DNA of 64,000 bases from contig NZ_CP028105.1 of the NCBI RefSeq assembly GCF_003019675.1, positions 124,001 to 188,000 on the forward strand, read 5' to 3'. Positions 39,042 through 63,702 of this stretch are shown here, one piece after another. A model generated the notes under the pieces. It was not told the DNA's origin, did no database searches, and saw only the letters and a program-made list of their open reading frames with translations. Position 1 is the stretch's first letter. Every line of letters begins with the position of its first letter. The DNA is from Fusobacterium ulcerans. Its GTDB lineage: Bacteria > Fusobacteriota > Fusobacteriia > Fusobacteriales > Fusobacteriaceae. Made by a program: the position numbers and the translations under genes.

Positions 39042-39064
39042 CAGCCTTATAAAATTAAAAAGAA

Positions 39065-39230
39065 AGATAGAGGCGCAGAAAACATCAGTAGGATCATTTA
39101 GTTTAGCAAACAGTGAGGTGATCTGAAAGGGAATTCTGCCGAAATGAAAAAGAATGCTGAAGCTTTTTTGTTGGGAGTATAGATAATATCTGTACTACTG
39201 TCATTGATTACTTCAATGGAGTGCTATCTG
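39065..39230 (+). ncRNA. Lysine riboswitch (L-box) aptamer 1
   Basis: Matches the L-box pattern: AGATAGAGGCGC with TCAGTAG, then GAAAGGGAATTCTGCCGAAA, TTGGGAGTATAGATAA, CTACTGTCATTGATT and closing GGAGTGCTATCT. P1 pairs AGATAG with CTATCT. Controls the downstream YfcC-type transporter; predicted OFF with lysine. Confidence 0.95.
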
Positions 39231-39280
39231 TGATTCTGATCTATGTGCATTTTTTGCTTTGCATATAATTAAGTTGTTTT

Positions 39281-43422: not shown

Positions 43423-44872
43423 TTAATGAAGTCCATTGTAAGTTACAATTGAAATACTATTTCCATCTGGCATAAACTCTATTTTTTCTCCCTTTTCTAT
43501 TTTTACTATATTCCCAAAGAACATATATGGAGCTATTGTATAGTGTGATGCATTTTCCCATTCAGGAAGTGCATAATAAAGTTCAAATTCTTTATTTTTT
43601 ATCTGACTGGCTGTCATATAACTGAATAAAACATGTTCAAAGCTATGCAATGATGTCTTCCAGTTATGTACTTTTGGATAATTTATTACTGGTTTATGAG
43701 TTTTCCCATCTACCATATGCCATATTTCTCCATATTCATGATCTACCATTTTATCCAGCCAGTAACGCTGTGTGTTATTTAAATAAGCATAATAAGAAGG
43801 ATCATGAATAGCTAATATTTCACAAGCCTGATCCAGCTCTGCTAATATCCACCATTCTTTATCTATATCAATATTACCTTCAGAATCCAGACGACATGCC
43901 CAGCTTCCTTTTATAACATCAGAAATATTCTCCTCAACAAAAGCATCTTTTGATATTTTATCAATCTTCGGACGAGCAAAATCTATATAAAAAGGTTCAC
44001 CTAACATTTCTCCTACTTTTTGTATTACCCAAAAAGTTTTTACTGAATGTCCAAAGTCTGTATGATCAGTCCCAAGGCATAAATTTGAAGTTTCTGTTTC
44101 TACTCCCCAAAAGAATTTATATCTTTCACTATAAAAATGAGTTATCAATATATCAGCTACTTTTTTCATGTCTTTCTTCCAAATATCTTTGTATGGCTGA
44201 GGCAGTGTTGGTGTAAGCATTACTATGTAAGCATAAAGCTGATCTAATTGAGCTACTATCTGCACTTCTGGATCTTTTGTATGTTTAGGATACCAAGTAA
44301 AATATCCACGCCCATCATCTAAATAGACACTAAATATATAATCTTTAAGCTGAATTATTTTATGAAGTACTCCAACATCATGAGTTAAGAAATAATACAT
44401 TCCTAATCCTGTAATTCCATAAGCAAGGTCCTGACTAGTATGTTCATATCTCTCTGCTCCCCATTCTCCTGTTTCTATATTTTTTTAGTAAACATTCCGT
44501 AATTTCCATCTATTGCATCTATTAATGCTAAAGTACCTTTTCTGCATAATTTCAGATACTCAGGTTTCCCAGTCATATGAAAGGCTATACCATAGGCGTA
44601 TGTCTGACGTGAATGTGCTCTTATAAAATTATATTCTGTTTCTATCCTTCAGTTATTTTATCTTTTAAAGCTTCTTTAAATTCTTCTGGCCATTCTTCTT
44701 GATTCTTCGAAAGAACTTCTCCTTTATTTGTACGATATGTTGGAAATAAATCATCTTTTAATTCTACAGCATCTGGAAGAGTCCAAAATTTCATTAAATC
44801 ATTTTCTAAATGGTTAAGCCATACTTCTGGACCTAAAGCATTTTCTATTAACTCTTTTGTTTTTTCAGCCAT
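43423..44872 (-). pseudogene. AGE-family (N-acylglucosamine 2-epimerase-like) gene with two frameshifts
   Basis: Three consecutive frame segments join into one alpha/alpha-barrel sugar-epimerase-like protein of about 480 residues. N-terminal part 44642-44872 (MAEKTKELIENALGPEVWLN, AAAGGAG upstream). Middle part about 44468-44645 encodes IETEYNFIRAHSRQTYAYG. C-terminal part runs from about 44470 to 43423 (ETGEWGAERYEHTSQD..., TDHTDFGHSVKTFW). One missing base near 44644 and one in the A7/T7 tract near 44480 each break the frame. Either a recent pseudogene or sequencing errors; every other part of the frame is well conserved. Confidence 0.75.
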
Positions 44873-45018
44873 TATTTTTCTCCTTTTAAAATATTATACT
44901 TCTACATGCTATTGTATTACTCTATTTCCATTTATTTGTCAATGCCTATAAAAAATAATCTTTGAATAATATTATTTTTGAAATAAAATCCAATAAATTA
45001 TGCTATATTATAAACTTA

Positions 45019-49756: not shown

Positions 49757-50140
49757 ATGGATTTTATAATTATCACAAATAACAACAAGGTTTATAATTT
49801 TTACAAAGAAACAAATGATGTTTTTTATTTTCAAAAAAAAGATTTCCTAGATCTTTTAGAGATAGTGAAAGAGGAAATATATAAAGGACATAAACTTCTT
49901 TCTGATCCTATCATGTATAATCTAGAAAATTCTGAGAATCCATATAAATCTATTGCTGTCTCTAAAGACACTTTTTCAGATGATGGAACTCAAAAAAAAT
50001 TAATAGATGGAGTAATTAGTATAGCTAGAAAAATTCCAAACAGAAAAAATTTCTCTGAATTTTCTGAAACTACTTTAGAAGAATTTAGATTTATTGACTT
50101 AAATCTTCTAACTGATGGAACTAAATCTTTTAGCTACTAA
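49757..50140 (+). CDS. GrdX-like protein
   Basis: 127-residue cytoplasmic protein with the GrdX pattern: N-terminal IIITNNNKV, then KGHKLLSDPIMYNLENSENPYKS with a conserved GxxLLxxP and NPYKS, and a short C-terminal helix. GrdX is an uncharacterised member of glycine-reductase and related selenium-dependent Stickland operons. No reductase subunits adjoin here. ATG 49757 after GGGAGGTG; the EAL-like gene starts 17 nt downstream. Confidence 0.72.
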   Translation: MDFIIITNNNKVYNFYKETNDVFYFQKKDFLDLLEIVKEEIYKGHKLLSDPIMYNLENSENPYKSIAVSKDTFSDDGTQKKLIDGVISIARKIPNRKNFSEFSETTLEEFRFIDLNLLTDGTKSFSY

Positions 50141-50928: not shown

Positions 50929-53391
50929 CTAGATTTTATCTTCTACCCATTTTACAAGGCTCTCTCTTGTTTTTTCTACAATCTCATCATAATTTAATCC
51001 TTCAGGTGATACTTTCTCAAAGAATTTAACTTCTATCTTAGAAGCCTTAGGAAATTTAGTATTTGCAGGGAAAGCTTCAAATGCTCCTCTTATTCCAAAA
51101 GGTACAACTGGTATATCCAACTCTTTTGCCAAAATAGCAAATGCCTTTTTAAATTCCAGCATCTTTCCATCTCTTGTTCTTGCTCCTTCTGGGAATATAA
51201 CAACGCTCTTTCCATCTTTCAATACTTTAGCCATTGTCTGAAGTACCTCTCCAAGATTTTTATTGATATCTACCAGAATAACATTTGAATTTTCTCCAAG
51301 TTTTCTCATATATCCCTTAGAAAAATGCTTTACTTTTGCAAGATAATAAATGTTTCTAAGTATTTTTGATGGAACTGAATGATTAAATATAAAAGCATCC
51401 AAAAGACTTTGGTGATTTCCTGCATAAATAACTGGTTCTGATGTCAGATTTTCCATTCCGCTTTTTTGTACTCTAAAATACAATTTGAAAGGAAGCCATG
51501 TCAGTAATTTTCCCATCATTGTTACTATATTTGACTTAGGAAGATCAGCCTCTATATCCTTATTCAGATAATCTTTCCAGTTGATTTCCTCTATCTTTTC
51601 ATCGCTTCTATTTTCTTTTACAAATTCAGCCAGTTTCTCTACAGTTGGATTATCAAGAATTATGTTCTCTGCTCCCTTTACTCCAAAATTACTTTCCAAA
51701 TAAGTCAAAAGTTCAACCATATCTAAAGAATCCATACCTAAATCCAGTTCTATATGAGCTGATGGCGAAACTGGTCTGTTCTTAGTCTTTACCAGATAAT
51801 CTTTTAAAAGAGTATATTCTTCATATTTAGGCTCTTCTATATGAATATTTTCTGTTTCCTTCTCTTTCAGCATATCAGGTATCATAAATCTTCTTATCTT
51901 ACCTATTTTTGTTTTAGGCATCTCTTCCTGTACTATTCTTATATCTAGTATTTTTCTATAATTAGGAGCTTTTCCATTGTATGAATCAATAACTCCCCAT
52001 TTCAGTGTTTCTTTTATGTTTGTTACTTTTTCATCATATATTTTCTGAAAGTTAGGATATATAACTGCTGTAAGCACTGAATCTATTTCAGAAATTACTA
52101 TCTCCTGAATAAGATTAGTCTTACTCATTATCTGCTGTTCTATCTCAATTGGATTGATATTTTTTCCATTTGATAAAACTATCATCTCTTTTTTTCTTCC
52201 TGTTACATATAGGAATCCATCTCTAATTTCTCCAAGGTCCCCTGTATGTATCCATCCTTCACTGTCAATAGTTTCAGCAGTTTCTTCTGGTTTATTGTAA
52301 TATCCTTTCATTACATTTCTACCTCTGGCAATAATTTCTCCATCTTCTGCTATTTTAGCTTCTATTCCAGGAAGTATTCTTCCAGCTGATCCGGGTCTTA
52401 TCTCATCTAGTGGTGTAAATGAGATCATTGGAGCTGTTTCTGTCATCCCATACCCTTCACATACTTTTAATCCCAGTGTAAGAAAATCTCTTGATACTCT
52501 TGGGTCAAGCTTAGATCCCCCTGATACAAAAAATCTTACATTTCCACCAAAATTATCATGGACTTTTTTAAATATTTTTCTGCTGAAAGAGATGCTGTTT
52601 ATTTTTTCACATAATTTAAAAATAAGCTTTGTTGCCTTACCAGCATTTATTTTTTCCATTATTTTCTGATGAAGCATTTCCCATAATCTTGGAACTCCTA
52701 TCATCATAGTTACTTTATAAGTCTGAAAAGCATCTACCATAGACTGAGAAGACATCTCTTTAAGGAATATTATTGTTGCTCCCTTAGCCAGAGGTACTAC
52801 CCCTGATCCCAGTAATGGAAATATATGATGCATAGGAAGAAGTGCCAGAACAATATCTTCTTTCACAAACATTTTATATTTGTCCAGTCCTTCTATATTC
52901 ACAAGTATGTTATCAAATTTAAGCATTACTCCTTTAGGTTTTCCAGTAGTACCTGAAGTATACAGCATCAAAGCAATATTTTCCGGCTCTGGTGAATTAA
53001 GAACAAGTTCTTCTGTTATCTCATGATCTTCAACATCATCTACAACCACTATTTTTAAATCTTTTTTTGCTGCTTCAAGAGCTTTTTTTACATTTGAAAG
53101 ATTATTTTGTGATGTATAGATATATTTCGAATCAGAATCTTCTATATAATATACAAGTTCCTCCCCTGATAAACTTGAATCAAGACACACACATGTTCCT
53201 GATTTGTCCCATACTCCTAGGAAAGAGTAAAGAAGTTCAGGTCTGTTTTCCATATATATTATAACTCTGTCCTCTTTTTCTATTAATACTTGTGAAGAAA
53301 AAATCTTAGCTTTAGTTATCATTTCTTTATAACTTATATTTCTTCCTTCGTATATTATCGCTGTCTTATTATAATCTCTTACAAATTCCAA
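50929..53391 (-). CDS. Acyl-activating ligase - ACP - acyltransferase fusion, copy 2
   Basis: 820 residues with three fused modules. AMP-binding adenylate-forming ligase (about 1-500): LMLYTSGTTGKPKGVML, GYGMTETAPM, HTGDLGE and a C-terminal KTKIGKIRRF Lys motif. Acyl-carrier domain (about 525-600) with LDLGMDSLDMVELL carrying the phosphopantetheine Ser. PlsC-type acyltransferase (about 630-820) with GNHQSLLDA (HxxxxD) and FPEGARTRDG. It can in principle activate, carry and transfer a fatty acid on one chain, the reverse domain order of E. coli Aas. Own promoter at 53426-53454. Confidence 0.88.
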   Translation of the reverse strand: MEFVRDYNKTAIIYEGRNISYKEMITKAKIFSSQVLIEKEDRVIIYMENRPELLYSFLGVWDKSGTCVCLDSSLSGEELVYYIEDSDSKYIYTSQNNLSNVKKALEAAKKDLKIVVVDDVEDHEITEELVLNSPEPENIALMLYTSGTTGKPKGVMLKFDNILVNIEGLDKYKMFVKEDIVLALLPMHHIFPLLGSGVVPLAKGATIIFLKEMSSQSMVDAFQTYKVTMMIGVPRLWEMLHQKIMEKINAGKATKLIFKLCEKINSISFSRKIFKKVHDNFGGNVRFFVSGGSKLDPRVSRDFLTLGLKVCEGYGMTETAPMISFTPLDEIRPGSAGRILPGIEAKIAEDGEIIARGRNVMKGYYNKPEETAETIDSEGWIHTGDLGEIRDGFLYVTGRKKEMIVLSNGKNINPIEIEQQIMSKTNLIQEIVISEIDSVLTAVIYPNFQKIYDEKVTNIKETLKWGVIDSYNGKAPNYRKILDIRIVQEEMPKTKIGKIRRFMIPDMLKEKETENIHIEEPKYEEYTLLKDYLVKTKNRPVSPSAHIELDLGMDSLDMVELLTYLESNFGVKGAENIILDNPTVEKLAEFVKENRSDEKIEEINWKDYLNKDIEADLPKSNIVTMMGKLLTWLPFKLYFRVQKSGMENLTSEPVIYAGNHQSLLDAFIFNHSVPSKILRNIYYLAKVKHFSKGYMRKLGENSNVILVDINKNLGEVLQTMAKVLKDGKSVVIFPEGARTRDGKMLEFKKAFAILAKELDIPVVPFGIRGAFEAFPANTKFPKASKIEVKFFEKVSPEGLNYDEIVEKTRESLVKWVEDKI

Positions 53392-53478: not shown

Positions 53479-53781
53479 CTAAATATTTGTTATTTCAATA
53501 TTTAAAATCATTATTTTACTAAAAACACTAAATAATGAACTTATTCTTATTTCTTTTGCATCTCTTAAATATTCTGGGACAAACACTTTTATCCCCTCTG
53601 CTTCTTTTTCTATATATTTTATCTCTTTTTGAGAAATATTATTTGTATCTTTTATAAATTCACCCTGAATTATATCTTGGCATCCTGCTCATCCAAAACT
53701 TTGAATTTCTTTTTTCAAAATTATTCCTTTAAAATTATTTTTCTTCATATATTTTATAACTTTTTCTTTTATTTCTATCAA
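53479..53781 (-). CDS. Candidate HesB/IscA-like selenoprotein with in-frame TGA
   Basis: A 100-residue frame interrupted by a single TGA (53689-53691, residue 31). It starts at TTG 53781 with AAGGAGG 6 nt upstream and stops at TAG. The N-terminal segment IEIKEKVIKYMKKNNFKGII, the redox-like SFG-U-AGC and C-terminal GIKVFVPEYLRDAKEIRIS fit a small HesB-like Fe-S carrier family that is known to use Sec at the first Cys position. U-x-x-C spacing and a hairpin 22 nt after the TGA support recoding. A decayed gene is the alternative. Family call is by eye. Confidence 0.6.
53653..53674 (-). ncRNA. SECIS-like hairpin downstream of the UGA
   Basis: mRNA sense TATAATTC-AGGGT-GAATTTATA, one bulged base, loop beginning A-G. 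The loop starts 22 nt after the UGA, within the 16-37 nt window expected for bacterial SECIS, and has a G in the first two loop positions. Confidence 0.5.
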
Positions 53782-53816
53782 ATTTTTCCTCCTTTTAAAA
53801 TTTAGTATTTTCTTAA

Positions 53817-53844
53817 ATTTTATCACATTTTTGTATTAATTCAA
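53817..53844 (-). promoter_or_regulatory. Promoter of HesB-like gene
   Basis: Minus strand TTGAAT (53839-53844), 16-nt spacer, TAAAAT (53817-53822). A usable promoter and ribosome binding site argue that the gene is not simply debris. Confidence 0.6.
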
Positions 53845-53957: not shown

Positions 53958-53994
53958 TAACTGTTAATACTTTATAACTTTAAAGGAGAATGTG

Positions 53995-55188
53995 ATGGGA
54001 AGATTAGTTGGAACTATTTCTAGAGGACTTCGTGCACCTATTATTCATCAAGGTGACAAAATTGAAGATTTCGTAGTTGATGCAGTGTTAGCTGCTGTTG
54101 AAAGCGATGGTATAACATTAAGAGACAAGGACATTGTTGCGGTTACAGAATCTATAGTTGCCAGAGCTCAAGGAAACTATGCTACTATTGATGATATTGC
54201 AGCAGATGTAAAAAATAAATATGGAGATAATGCTATTGGTGTTATTTTTCCAATTTTAAGCCGTAACAGATTTTCTGTATGCTTGAAAGGAATAGCTAAA
54301 GGAGCAAAAAAAATTATTCTTATGTTCAGTTATCCATCTGATGAAGTTGGAAACCATTTTATTGATATGGAGCTTTTAGATGAAAAAGGTGTAAATCCTT
54401 GGAGTGATATTCTTAGTGAAGCTGAATTTACTGAGAAATTTGGAAAGCCTCTTCATGAATTTACTGGAGTAAATTACATTGAGTACTATTCTGATTTAAT
54501 AAGAGAGCAGGGAGCAGAGGTTGAAGTAATATTTGCTAACAATCCTACTGCAATTTTAAATTATACTGACTGTGTTTTAAACTGTGATATCCATACTCGT
54601 TTCAGAACTAAAAAATTATTAAAAAAAGCTGGAGCTAAAATAGTATTTGGTATGGATGAAATACTTACTTCTTCTAGAAATGGAAGCGGATATAATGAGG
54701 ATTACGGGCTGTTAGGTTCTAATAAAGCTACTGAAGATACTATAAAACTTTTCCCTCGTGATTGTAAAGATACAGTTCTTAATATCCAAAAAATGTTTTT
54801 AGAAAAAACTGGAAAAGCTATAGAAGTTATGGTATATGGAGACGGAGCATTTAAAGATCCAGTTGGAAAAATATGGGAACTTGCTGACCCAGTAGTTTCT
54901 CCGGGATATACTTCTGGATTAGAAGGAACTCCTAATGAAATAAAATTAAAATATCTTGCTGATAATGATCTTGCTGGACTTACAGGAGAAGAATTAAACA
55001 AAGCTGTTGCTGAAGCAATAAAAAATAAAGATTCTGATCTTAAAGGGCAAATGATAACTCAAGGTACTACTCCTAGAAGACTTACAGATCTTATAGGATC
55101 ACTATGTGACCTTACTTCTGGAAGTGGAGATAAGGGAACTCCTATTATCTTAATTCAAGGATATTTTGACAACTACATAGATAACTAA
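53995..55188 (+). CDS. CofE/FbiB-like gamma-glutamyl ligase family protein
   Basis: 397 residues, start ATG 53995 (AAAGGAGA upstream; an in-frame GTG lies one codon earlier). N-terminal sequence VGTISRGLRAPIIHQGDKIEDFV, DIVAVTESIVARAQGNY, ILSRNRFSVCLKGIAKGA and the late VYGDGAFKDPVGKIWELADP place it in the coenzyme F420-0:L-glutamate ligase family. Fusobacteria are not known to make F420, so the acceptor is probably another metabolite. It lies between two convergent or divergent acyl-ligase fusion genes but on the opposite strand. Confidence 0.75.
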   Translation: MGRLVGTISRGLRAPIIHQGDKIEDFVVDAVLAAVESDGITLRDKDIVAVTESIVARAQGNYATIDDIAADVKNKYGDNAIGVIFPILSRNRFSVCLKGIAKGAKKIILMFSYPSDEVGNHFIDMELLDEKGVNPWSDILSEAEFTEKFGKPLHEFTGVNYIEYYSDLIREQGAEVEVIFANNPTAILNYTDCVLNCDIHTRFRTKKLLKKAGAKIVFGMDEILTSSRNGSGYNEDYGLLGSNKATEDTIKLFPRDCKDTVLNIQKMFLEKTGKAIEVMVYGDGAFKDPVGKIWELADPVVSPGYTSGLEGTPNEIKLKYLADNDLAGLTGEELNKAVAEAIKNKDSDLKGQMITQGTTPRRLTDLIGSLCDLTSGSGDKGTPIILIQGYFDNYIDN

Positions 55189-55275: not shown

Positions 55276-57777
55276 TTATTTTATAAGCCACAATTCTATT
55301 TCATCTTTGCTTTTTTCTACTATCTCTTCTACTGTAAGACCTTCTGGCATTACTTTATCAAAGAATTTTATAGTTATTGGTGACATGCTGGGAATTCTCT
55401 GTCCATAAGGCATAGCTTCATATGCTCCTTTTATTCCAAATGGAACAACTGGTATATTCAATTCTTTAGAAAGAATAGCAAAAGTCTTTTTGAAATCCTG
55501 TATCTCTCCATCTCTTGTTCTTGCTCCTTCTGGGAATATAACAAGATTTTTTCCTTCTTTCAATACCTTAGCACTTACCTGCAAAGTTTCTTTTAAATTT
55601 TTATTAATATCTATAATAAGTACATTTCCTCTTTCAGCCAGATATTTTCTCAAAGGAGTACCAAAGTGAACTATTGTTCCAAGATAATATGTATCTCCCA
55701 TTTTAGCAGATGATATTGCCTGATTAAAAATAAGAGCATCTAGGAAACTTTGATGGTTTCCTACATATATTGTCGGTTCTGAAAGTATTTTATCCTGCCC
55801 CTCTTTTTTCAGGCTGAAGTATATGCTGAAGAACGGCTTAAATATAAATCTTATTAACTTTCCTACCCATGCTGATTTAGGAAGTTCTATATTTGTATCT
55901 TGGCTGAGGATAGTTTTCCAGTCCACTTCATTGTCACTGAATTCTCCTCCTCTTTCCTTAACAAATTTAGCCATATCCAATACATTTTTTATATCAGTAA
56001 ATTCTTCTTCTGTTATTTTTATTCCAAAACTCATTTCTATAAAGGACAATATCTCTACTATATCCAATGAATCAAGTCCTAAATCAAGCTCTAAGTGAGC
56101 ATCAGGTGTAACTTCTACATTGTAGTTCTTCTCCATATAATCTTTTAAAGTTTCATATTCAGCTTTAAATTCTTGTGGAATTACTATCTCTTTTTTTACT
56201 TCATGTTTTGAACTATCTTCATTTTCATCTTCTATTGCCTGTCCTGCAAGGAAATCATTCAACATAAATCTTCTTACTTTTCCAAGCTTAGTTTTTGGAA
56301 GTTCATCTTTTACAATTTTTATTTCAAGTATTTTTCTATATTTAGGAGCTGTTATATTATATTTATCTATTATCTCCCATTTTAATGTTTCTTTTATATT
56401 AGTTATCTTTCTATGTTTTATAAGGTCAAAGTCAGGATACACAACTGCCATCAAATGATTGTTGTACTCCATAACAGCTATCTCTTTTATAAGATCTGTT
56501 CCTTTGAATATTTCACTTTCTATATCACTTGGATTGATATTTTTTCCATTAGAAAGAACTATCATCTCTTTTTTTCTTCCAATGATACTTAAATAATTAT
56601 TTTCTAATTTACCAAGGTCACCTGTGTGGAACCATCCATCAGCATCTATTACTTCAGCTGTTGCTTTAGGATTATTGTAATATCCTTTCATTACATTGGC
56701 ACCTTTTACCAGAACCTCTCCATCTTCAACTATTTTTACTTCTATATCCGGTATCAGTTCTCCTACTGTTCCGGGCTTTATTCTATCAGGGTTATTAAAT
56801 GAAATAATTGGAGATGTTTCAGTAAGTCCGTACCCTTCCATCAATGGAAGTCCTAGAGTAAGGTAATCTCTGGCAATTTCAGGATCTAATTTAGCTCCCC
56901 CTGATGCCATTACTCTAAGTGAGCCTCCAAGTTCATTATTAACTTTTTTAAAGACTAATCTGCTAAGTGCACGACTGTTTATCTTTTGACATAGCTTGAA
57001 TAATTTTTTGATTGCCCAGCTTTTATTTATCTGCCCCATTATAGCTTTATGAAGCATTTCCCATACTCTAGGCACCCCAATTATTACAGTTATTTTGTAA
57101 TCTTTCAAAGCTTTTTTCAAAGCTTCAGAAGACATTTCATCTAATATTACAACTAAAGTTCCAAAGTACATAGTCATCAATAAGTTTATGTTTAATGGAA
57201 ATATATGGTGATAAGGGAGAATAGCCAGTATTCTATCTGTTTCATCCACCAATTTTATTGCTTTTATAGCATTTATATTAGAAAGAAGGTTTGCATATGT
57301 AAGCATTACTCCCTTTGGATTTCCTGTTGTTCCAGAGGTATATAACAAAAGAGCTACATCTTCTACATTATCAATATTCACTTCATAGTCATCAGGTGTA
57401 AAATCTTCTGGAACTACTATTTCATCTACATTTATTATCTTTATATCTTTTCCATATTTTTCTTTAGCTTCAACAACATTTTTATAATTCTTATTTGTTG
57501 CATAAATATATTGAGGTTCTGCATCTTCAAATACATAAAGAAGCTGCTCTGCTGTATATCCAGCGTCTAAAACAACTCCTATTCCTTTTGAATTCCATAC
57601 TGAAAATAATGCCTCTATTATTTCAGGTCTGTTTTCTATATATACAACAACTTTATCATCTTTTTTTATTTTCAATAACGTGGAATAATATTTTATCCCT
57701 GTTATCAGCTCTTTATATGAATATTCTCTATCCTTGTATATAATAGCTGCCTTCCCTCTATCATGTAAAAAATTCAT
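55276..57777 (-). CDS. Acyl-activating ligase - ACP - acyltransferase fusion, copy 1
   Basis: 833 residues, the paralog of the protein at 50.9 kb. Ligase motifs: LLLYTSGTTGNPKGVML, GYGLTETSPI, HTGDLGK, TKLGKVRRF. ACP domain with LDLGLDSLDIVEIL (phosphopantetheine Ser). Acyltransferase with GNHQSFLDA and FPEGARTRDG. Probable role: activation of free fatty acid and acylation of a lysophospholipid or glycerol phosphate at the membrane. AGGAGG lies 6 nt before ATG 57777. Downstream of the response regulator and a 48-residue ORF in one operon. Confidence 0.88.
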   Translation of the reverse strand: MNFLHDRGKAAIIYKDREYSYKELITGIKYYSTLLKIKKDDKVVVYIENRPEIIEALFSVWNSKGIGVVLDAGYTAEQLLYVFEDAEPQYIYATNKNYKNVVEAKEKYGKDIKIINVDEIVVPEDFTPDDYEVNIDNVEDVALLLYTSGTTGNPKGVMLTYANLLSNINAIKAIKLVDETDRILAILPYHHIFPLNINLLMTMYFGTLVVILDEMSSEALKKALKDYKITVIIGVPRVWEMLHKAIMGQINKSWAIKKLFKLCQKINSRALSRLVFKKVNNELGGSLRVMASGGAKLDPEIARDYLTLGLPLMEGYGLTETSPIISFNNPDRIKPGTVGELIPDIEVKIVEDGEVLVKGANVMKGYYNNPKATAEVIDADGWFHTGDLGKLENNYLSIIGRKKEMIVLSNGKNINPSDIESEIFKGTDLIKEIAVMEYNNHLMAVVYPDFDLIKHRKITNIKETLKWEIIDKYNITAPKYRKILEIKIVKDELPKTKLGKVRRFMLNDFLAGQAIEDENEDSSKHEVKKEIVIPQEFKAEYETLKDYMEKNYNVEVTPDAHLELDLGLDSLDIVEILSFIEMSFGIKITEEEFTDIKNVLDMAKFVKERGGEFSDNEVDWKTILSQDTNIELPKSAWVGKLIRFIFKPFFSIYFSLKKEGQDKILSEPTIYVGNHQSFLDALIFNQAISSAKMGDTYYLGTIVHFGTPLRKYLAERGNVLIIDINKNLKETLQVSAKVLKEGKNLVIFPEGARTRDGEIQDFKKTFAILSKELNIPVVPFGIKGAYEAMPYGQRIPSMSPITIKFFDKVMPEGLTVEEIVEKSKDEIELWLIK

Positions 57778-63257: not shown

Positions 63258-63486
63258 ATGTTACACTCCTTAATAAAAATTTACCAAAAAATTGATTACC
63301 CCATAATAATTTTATCACACTTTTTCTTTTTAATCTAGGATTTCAAATTAATTTCTACTAAAAAAATAGATAATAATAAAAAACTTTTATTCTTCTACAA
63401 TTTTTCTATATATTAATAATATAAATAATATATTTTACAAAAAAAATTATCTATTATATACTCAGGTCTACAATAAATAATTTTTT

Positions 63487-63657
63487 AGATAGAGGCGCAA
63501 AAGACATCAGTATAATCATTTACATCTGGCAGATATTAAAAATGATTTGAAAGGGGATTTTGCCGAAATAGAAATATAAATGCCAAAGTATTTTTATTGG
63601 GAGTATGGATAACATCTATACTACTGTCATTATTTTTCATTAATGGAGTGCTGTCTT
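63487..63657 (+). ncRNA. Lysine riboswitch (L-box) aptamer 2
   Basis: AGATAGAGGCGCAAAAGACATCAGTA, GAAAGGGGATTTTGCCGAAA, ATTGGGAGTATGGATAACA, CTACTGTCATTATT and GGAGTGCTGTCT mirror aptamer 1. P1 pairs AGATAG with CTGTCT. It is about 310 nt upstream of the truncated gene at the right edge. Confidence 0.95.
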
Positions 63658-63702
63658 TAGAAATTTTTTAATCAATATTATTTTGGTAAATAAAAAATTT
63701 TT

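Follow-up and report, generated by a model that had tools for sequence, protein, structure and literature searches.

The minus strand of a 64,000-nucleotide stretch of Fusobacterium ulcerans DNA (hereafter the window) holds a 100-codon reading frame that is open except for one in-frame TGA (Table 1). The locus raises the question whether this TGA is a lesion, a leaky stop or a codon for selenocysteine (Sec) and, in the last case, to what kind of selenoprotein the gene belongs. An ordinary gene caller would stop the protein at residue 30 or begin it past the TGA. The evidence assembled here indicates that the small gene very probably does encode a selenoprotein.

Reading frame and expression signals

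With UGA read as Sec (U), the frame translates to MIEIKEKVIKYMKKNNFKGIILKKEIQSFGUAGCQDIIQGEFIKDTNNISQKEIKYIEKEAEGIKVFVPEYLRDAKEIRISSLFSVFSKIMILNIEITNI. An earlier note on this DNA had described the lone TGA in an otherwise open 100-codon frame, a strong ribosome binding site, the motif F-G-U-A-G-C and a promoter of the gene's own. The frame, for which that note gave no strand, the Shine-Dalgarno sequence and the motif are all as described, but the promoter did not hold up: the site proposed matches the consensus at 9 of 12 positions, and the region has fewer such matches than its own shuffles.

In the window, 14 frames carry a single TGA with at least 25 codons before it and at least 60 after it. 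Two of the 14 lie outside long open reading frames, namely the present frame and 44613-44951, which is antisense to a disrupted gene. The latter gene (43423-44872, minus strand) is epimerase-like, by eye N-acylglucosamine 2-epimerase-like; from 44642 to 44400 it is broken up into three frames, either by disruption or by sequencing errors.

Table 1. Features of the predicted selenoprotein locus and its flanks (positions in the window)
Feature	Position	Strand	Remarks
Predicted selenoprotein CDS	53479..53781	-	TTG start, TAG stop, 100 codons; UGA read as Sec, residue 31
Start codon TTG	53781-53779	-	First codon, taken as M
In-frame TGA, predicted Sec31	53689..53691	-	From frame and conservation
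Cys34 codon	53680..53682	-	Sole cysteine of the protein; U-x-x-C motif with Sec31
Stop codon TAG	53481-53479	-	From frame
Shine-Dalgarno AGGAGG	53788..53793	-	6 nt ahead of TTG; also in closest relatives
Weak promoter-like site TTGAAT-16-TAAAAT	53817..53844	-	Not above chance
SECIS-like hairpin	53654..53675	-	Alignment columns 17-38
Hairpin core stem	53671-53657	-	From alignment and covariation
Hairpin apical loop	53665-53663	-	If closed by the A-U pair
F420-0:gamma-glutamyl ligase family homolog (CofE-like)	53992-55188	+	PF01996, E 4e-56; divergent from the selenoprotein gene
Two paralogous AMP-binding/phosphopantetheine/acyltransferase fusion genes	50929-53391, 55276-57777	-	Flank the selenoprotein and CofE-like genes

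Conservation of the TGA and Cys replacements

The gene was matched in 36 of 98 genomes sampled from the phylum, and a scan of named genome contigs matched one Fusobacterium sp. MAG. In 29 of the sampled genomes, belonging to four genera (g1, g4, g8 and g13), a single TGA stands in the identical column and other internal stops are absent, an extra TAA in G005 being the normal end of the gene. These TGA-bearing relatives, at the level of the Fusobacteriaceae, reach down to about 30% identity. The retention of a lone TGA in an open frame across 29 genomes exceeds chance by far. SelB is above cut-off in 28 of the 29, the exception (G082) being a genome that is 76% complete.

The only sense residue found at the TGA column among relatives is Cys, never that of an unrelated codon. 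Stop-free Cys forms occur in G016 and G028 (CSCVG) and in G071 (KGSKCCPV), and in these three genomes SelA and SelB were not found (G071 is 82% complete). Within genus g4, four genomes read KGSKUCPVIF where G071 reads KGSKCCPVMF. Judged from these genomes, the change to Cys appears to follow loss of the Sec machinery. In the three genomes of genus g14, SelB is present, yet the gene is a CC form without a stop. One pattern weighs against a selenoprotein gene: dN/dS is 0.35-0.62 after the UGA compared with 0.02-0.08 before it, because synonymous change downstream is low.

A covarying hairpin downstream of the UGA

A bacterial SECIS is taken here to be a hairpin that closely follows the UGA on its 3' side, carries a G in the apical loop and has that loop 16-37 nt away. 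The hairpin noted earlier at this locus, with its AGGGT loop starting after 22 nt from the TGA, has that position, loop G and distance, and comparison among relatives upholds it as SECIS-like. In a gapless alignment of 27 distinct sequences counted from the TGA, columns T23, T24, C25, G28, G31, A32 and T38 are invariant, G28 being the apical-loop G. These columns are the stem and one loop base, though the protein varies there (I/L/V, Q/R/L, G/V, F/A/L). Pair 22-34 is A-U in 17 sequences, C-G in seven and G-C in three, with zero breaks; these three pair types in three clades are independent changes on both sides of the stem. At pair 26-30, 24 of the 27 sequences have A-U or G-C. Overall 86% of cells pair, compared with 26-47% when the partner is slid, and the covariation score of 0.289 was reached by none of 500 shuffles (mean 0.137, sd 0.021; the shuffles ignore relatedness), slid structures scoring at most 0.054.

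The codons point the same way. ATT, CGR, GGT and GGC, several of them rare in the window, are placed where pairing demands: Ile is written ATT in every sequence with Ile at that place (ATT makes up 26% of the window's Ile codons), Arg is written CGA or CGG although AGA makes up 96%, and GGC is used although it makes up 1%. Codon use thus reveals selection on the RNA. The F. ulcerans hairpin itself is short and weak, with a core of about -1.5 kcal/mol, and 2-5% of synonymous sequences are equally good; by itself it would be marginal, and its strength comes from the comparison among relatives. A search of its own genome with the RNA model placed the hairpin site at E 2e-7 and the next-best site at E 6. 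An Rfam scan of the window returned lysine riboswitches only (n=2), at 39060-39234 and 63482-63661 on the plus strand.

The Cys-encoding gene of G071 still has the hairpin (RNA model, 29 bits, E 0.0025), here a fossil SECIS. Such a fossil has been described for a HesB-like protein of Desulfitobacterium (PMC1794560).

Sec machinery and probable decoding of the UGA

The F. ulcerans genome, a single contig of 3.54 Mb, encodes Sec machinery. selD, selA, selB and a 199-aa YedF-like gene lie consecutively at L026 4763-9655, and the gene for tRNA-Sec (66 bits, cut-off 47) is at C1:2350490-2350580, directly past this row. selD (L026 4763-5809) carries an in-frame UGA of its own (MKKLQLDRCSIGGUASKIGP), in the classical place of Sec in SelD; therefore, the organism has at least two genes of the Sec-UGA type. 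If selD is called from the next TTG, its N-terminal active site is lost.

Since the Sec machinery is present, the TGA column holds only Sec or Cys, and the 3' hairpin covaries, Sec is almost certainly inserted at UGA31, as the earlier note had proposed, and it is highly likely that a selenoprotein gene functions at this locus. By analogy with established bacterial Sec decoding, SelB would bring Sec-tRNA-Sec to the hairpin, and insertion at UGA31 would yield a protein with 100 residues and a mass of about 11.5 kDa. fdhF and selD are examples of a 3' SECIS inside the coding region. The present gene resembles them in its UGA, in a hairpin loop about 22 nt downstream and in SelA, SelB, SelD and tRNA-Sec, with no notable difference.

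Two other explanations of the TGA deserve consideration. The frame falls below the cut-off of every curated family model, as would suit a dead gene in which the TGA is a lesion, or else a sequencing error. However, the TGA is shared, without other lesions, by relatives in 29 genomes, the most distant at about 30% identity, and the change to Cys appears to track loss of the Sec machinery, which makes this explanation exceedingly improbable; conservation of the TGA already refutes it. Any form of read-through, whether by a near-cognate or a suppressor tRNA, would fit a stop within a conserved frame. Plain read-through is nevertheless very improbable, given that Cys is the sole sense residue at the column, that the Sec machinery co-occurs with the gene and that the 3' hairpin covaries.

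Fold and family assignment

If UGA31 encodes Sec, the resulting protein is HesB/IscA-like in part. An AlphaFold model built from 15 homologs (mean pLDDT 85.6, pTM 0.78) has the IscA fold by Foldseek. Its best six PDB matches are of the IscA/SufA type, one not being named as such, with Foldseek probabilities of 0.97-1.0, TM of about 0.43-0.54 and a best E of 2.5e-3; the matched structures include E. coli SufA, E. coli IscA, Aquifex AQ_1857, an IscA with a 2Fe-2S cluster, and 9a4q_B. A profile search of PDB sequences gave no meaningful match. A profile alignment sets Sec31 on IscA Cys35 (SFG-U-AGC against TSG-C-SGM), weakly (E 0.013, probability 3%) and with three E. coli references that are approximate. 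IscA requires a C-terminal CxC, and Cys35 is its first cluster cysteine. The predicted protein would accordingly place Sec at the position of Cys35 in an IscA/HesB-like fold, while the C-terminal CxC is absent and with it the set of three cluster cysteines.

The label HesB/IscA-like given to the gene earlier is therefore borne out in the fold and in the Cys35 alignment, but not by the sequence models or the C-terminal CxC. For the A-type carriers IscA, SufA and ErpA (PF01521), the likeness lies in the fold and the site of Sec31, and the CxC is theirs alone; the model left the F. ulcerans protein unmatched and matched one of 15 relatives, at E 0.017. The HesB-like selenoproteins (TIGR01911) share an IscA-type fold and a Sec near residue 30, and relative L009 reads GUAGP, but none of the 15 members matched that model at E 1. 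The TIGR01911 motif is UxGP (PMC13188914, PMC1794560). The CC/Se motif family (NF041239) is alike in its length of about 90-100 residues and in a short N-terminal motif where a Sec or Cys has a second Cys next to it; its listed motif is CxxU, whereas the F. ulcerans protein has UxxC. Among the sequence models, NF041239 matches 12 of the 15 members best, always below cut-off (best E 2e-7). The F. ulcerans protein scores 17.8 bits where the cut-off is 40, a score that no genome of the phylum sample reached, the best member scoring 30 bits. The original prediction of this (seleno)protein family was made in Moorella thermoacetica (PMC13188914, Table 1). The F. ulcerans protein would work in the manner of HesB-like or CC/Se selenoproteins, yet by the tests applied here it is a member of neither named family.

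Gene neighbourhood

The earlier note had also pointed to a GrdX-like gene as a hint of selenium-dependent reductases. The gene is real (49757-50140, 3.3 kb away; NF038093, 86 bits, cut-off 40), but a functional link finds no support: GrdB and PrdB of the glycine and proline reductases were not found in the genome, where positive controls gave no signal either, and the neighbours of the gene vary from genus to genus. GrdX is an orphan in this genome and was rejected as a functional clue.

In the Fusobacterium group, an AMP-binding/ACP/acyltransferase fusion gene follows the selenoprotein gene and a second paralog sometimes precedes it; in other species, the selenoprotein gene lies directly between both AMP-binding/acyltransferase paralogs. 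In genus g8, the F420-0:gamma-glutamyl ligase homolog is on the other side and convergent. The neighbours in other genera we take to be Lon-like, NAD(P)HX-dehydratase-like, HAD-like and others (names given by eye unless tested with Pfam). With neighbours differing among genera, a conserved operon was also rejected as a clue to function.

Proposed role of the Sec/Cys site

A Cys is always found near the Sec, as UxxC in most members, UC in g13 and g4, and CxU in L009, and the Cys replacement forms are CxC or CC. Because the C-terminal CxC is missing and a Cys always accompanies the Sec or its Cys replacement, we infer a two-residue redox or soft-metal role for the Sec/Cys site, a proposal to which we give an even chance. 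Instead of acting as a classical Fe-S cluster carrier, the protein may form a selenenylsulfide at this pair, or bind a soft metal or a persulfide there.

The IscA/SufA-like fold and the alignment of Sec31 to IscA Cys35 are also what a true IscA-type Fe-S carrier with Sec as a cluster ligand would present. Such a carrier is unlikely, though, as the CxC that IscA requires is absent, the F. ulcerans protein has a single Cys, at position 34, and PF01521 and the IscA models give it no match; the missing CxC in particular argues against an ordinary Fe-S carrier.

A new branch of a known selenoprotein kind

The mechanism of Sec insertion is already known; what is new is the branch. Sequence comparison points to a genuine new branch of a known selenoprotein kind, whose function we infer. 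Whether it constitutes a separate, nameless Fusobacteriaceae selenoprotein family is an evenly balanced proposal: an IscA fold without the CxC of Fe-S carriers, in which the Cys35 site would have become a redox or soft-metal centre built on Sec and Cys (UxxC, CxU, UC), and in which Sec would have reverted to Cys at least once in recent time. Neither NCBIfam nor Pfam has a name for the branch, and no mention of it was found in the selenoprotein literature searched, whose coverage is incomplete, so that an earlier mention is possible. Current curated models fall under their cut-offs for it. The literature searched lists almost no selenoproteins for this phylum of the gut and mouth, to which the branch would be an undescribed addition. 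The branch also employs an IscA-type fold without the cluster-binding tail. Its fusobacterial SECIS, with real covariation, may be used to find more such genes.
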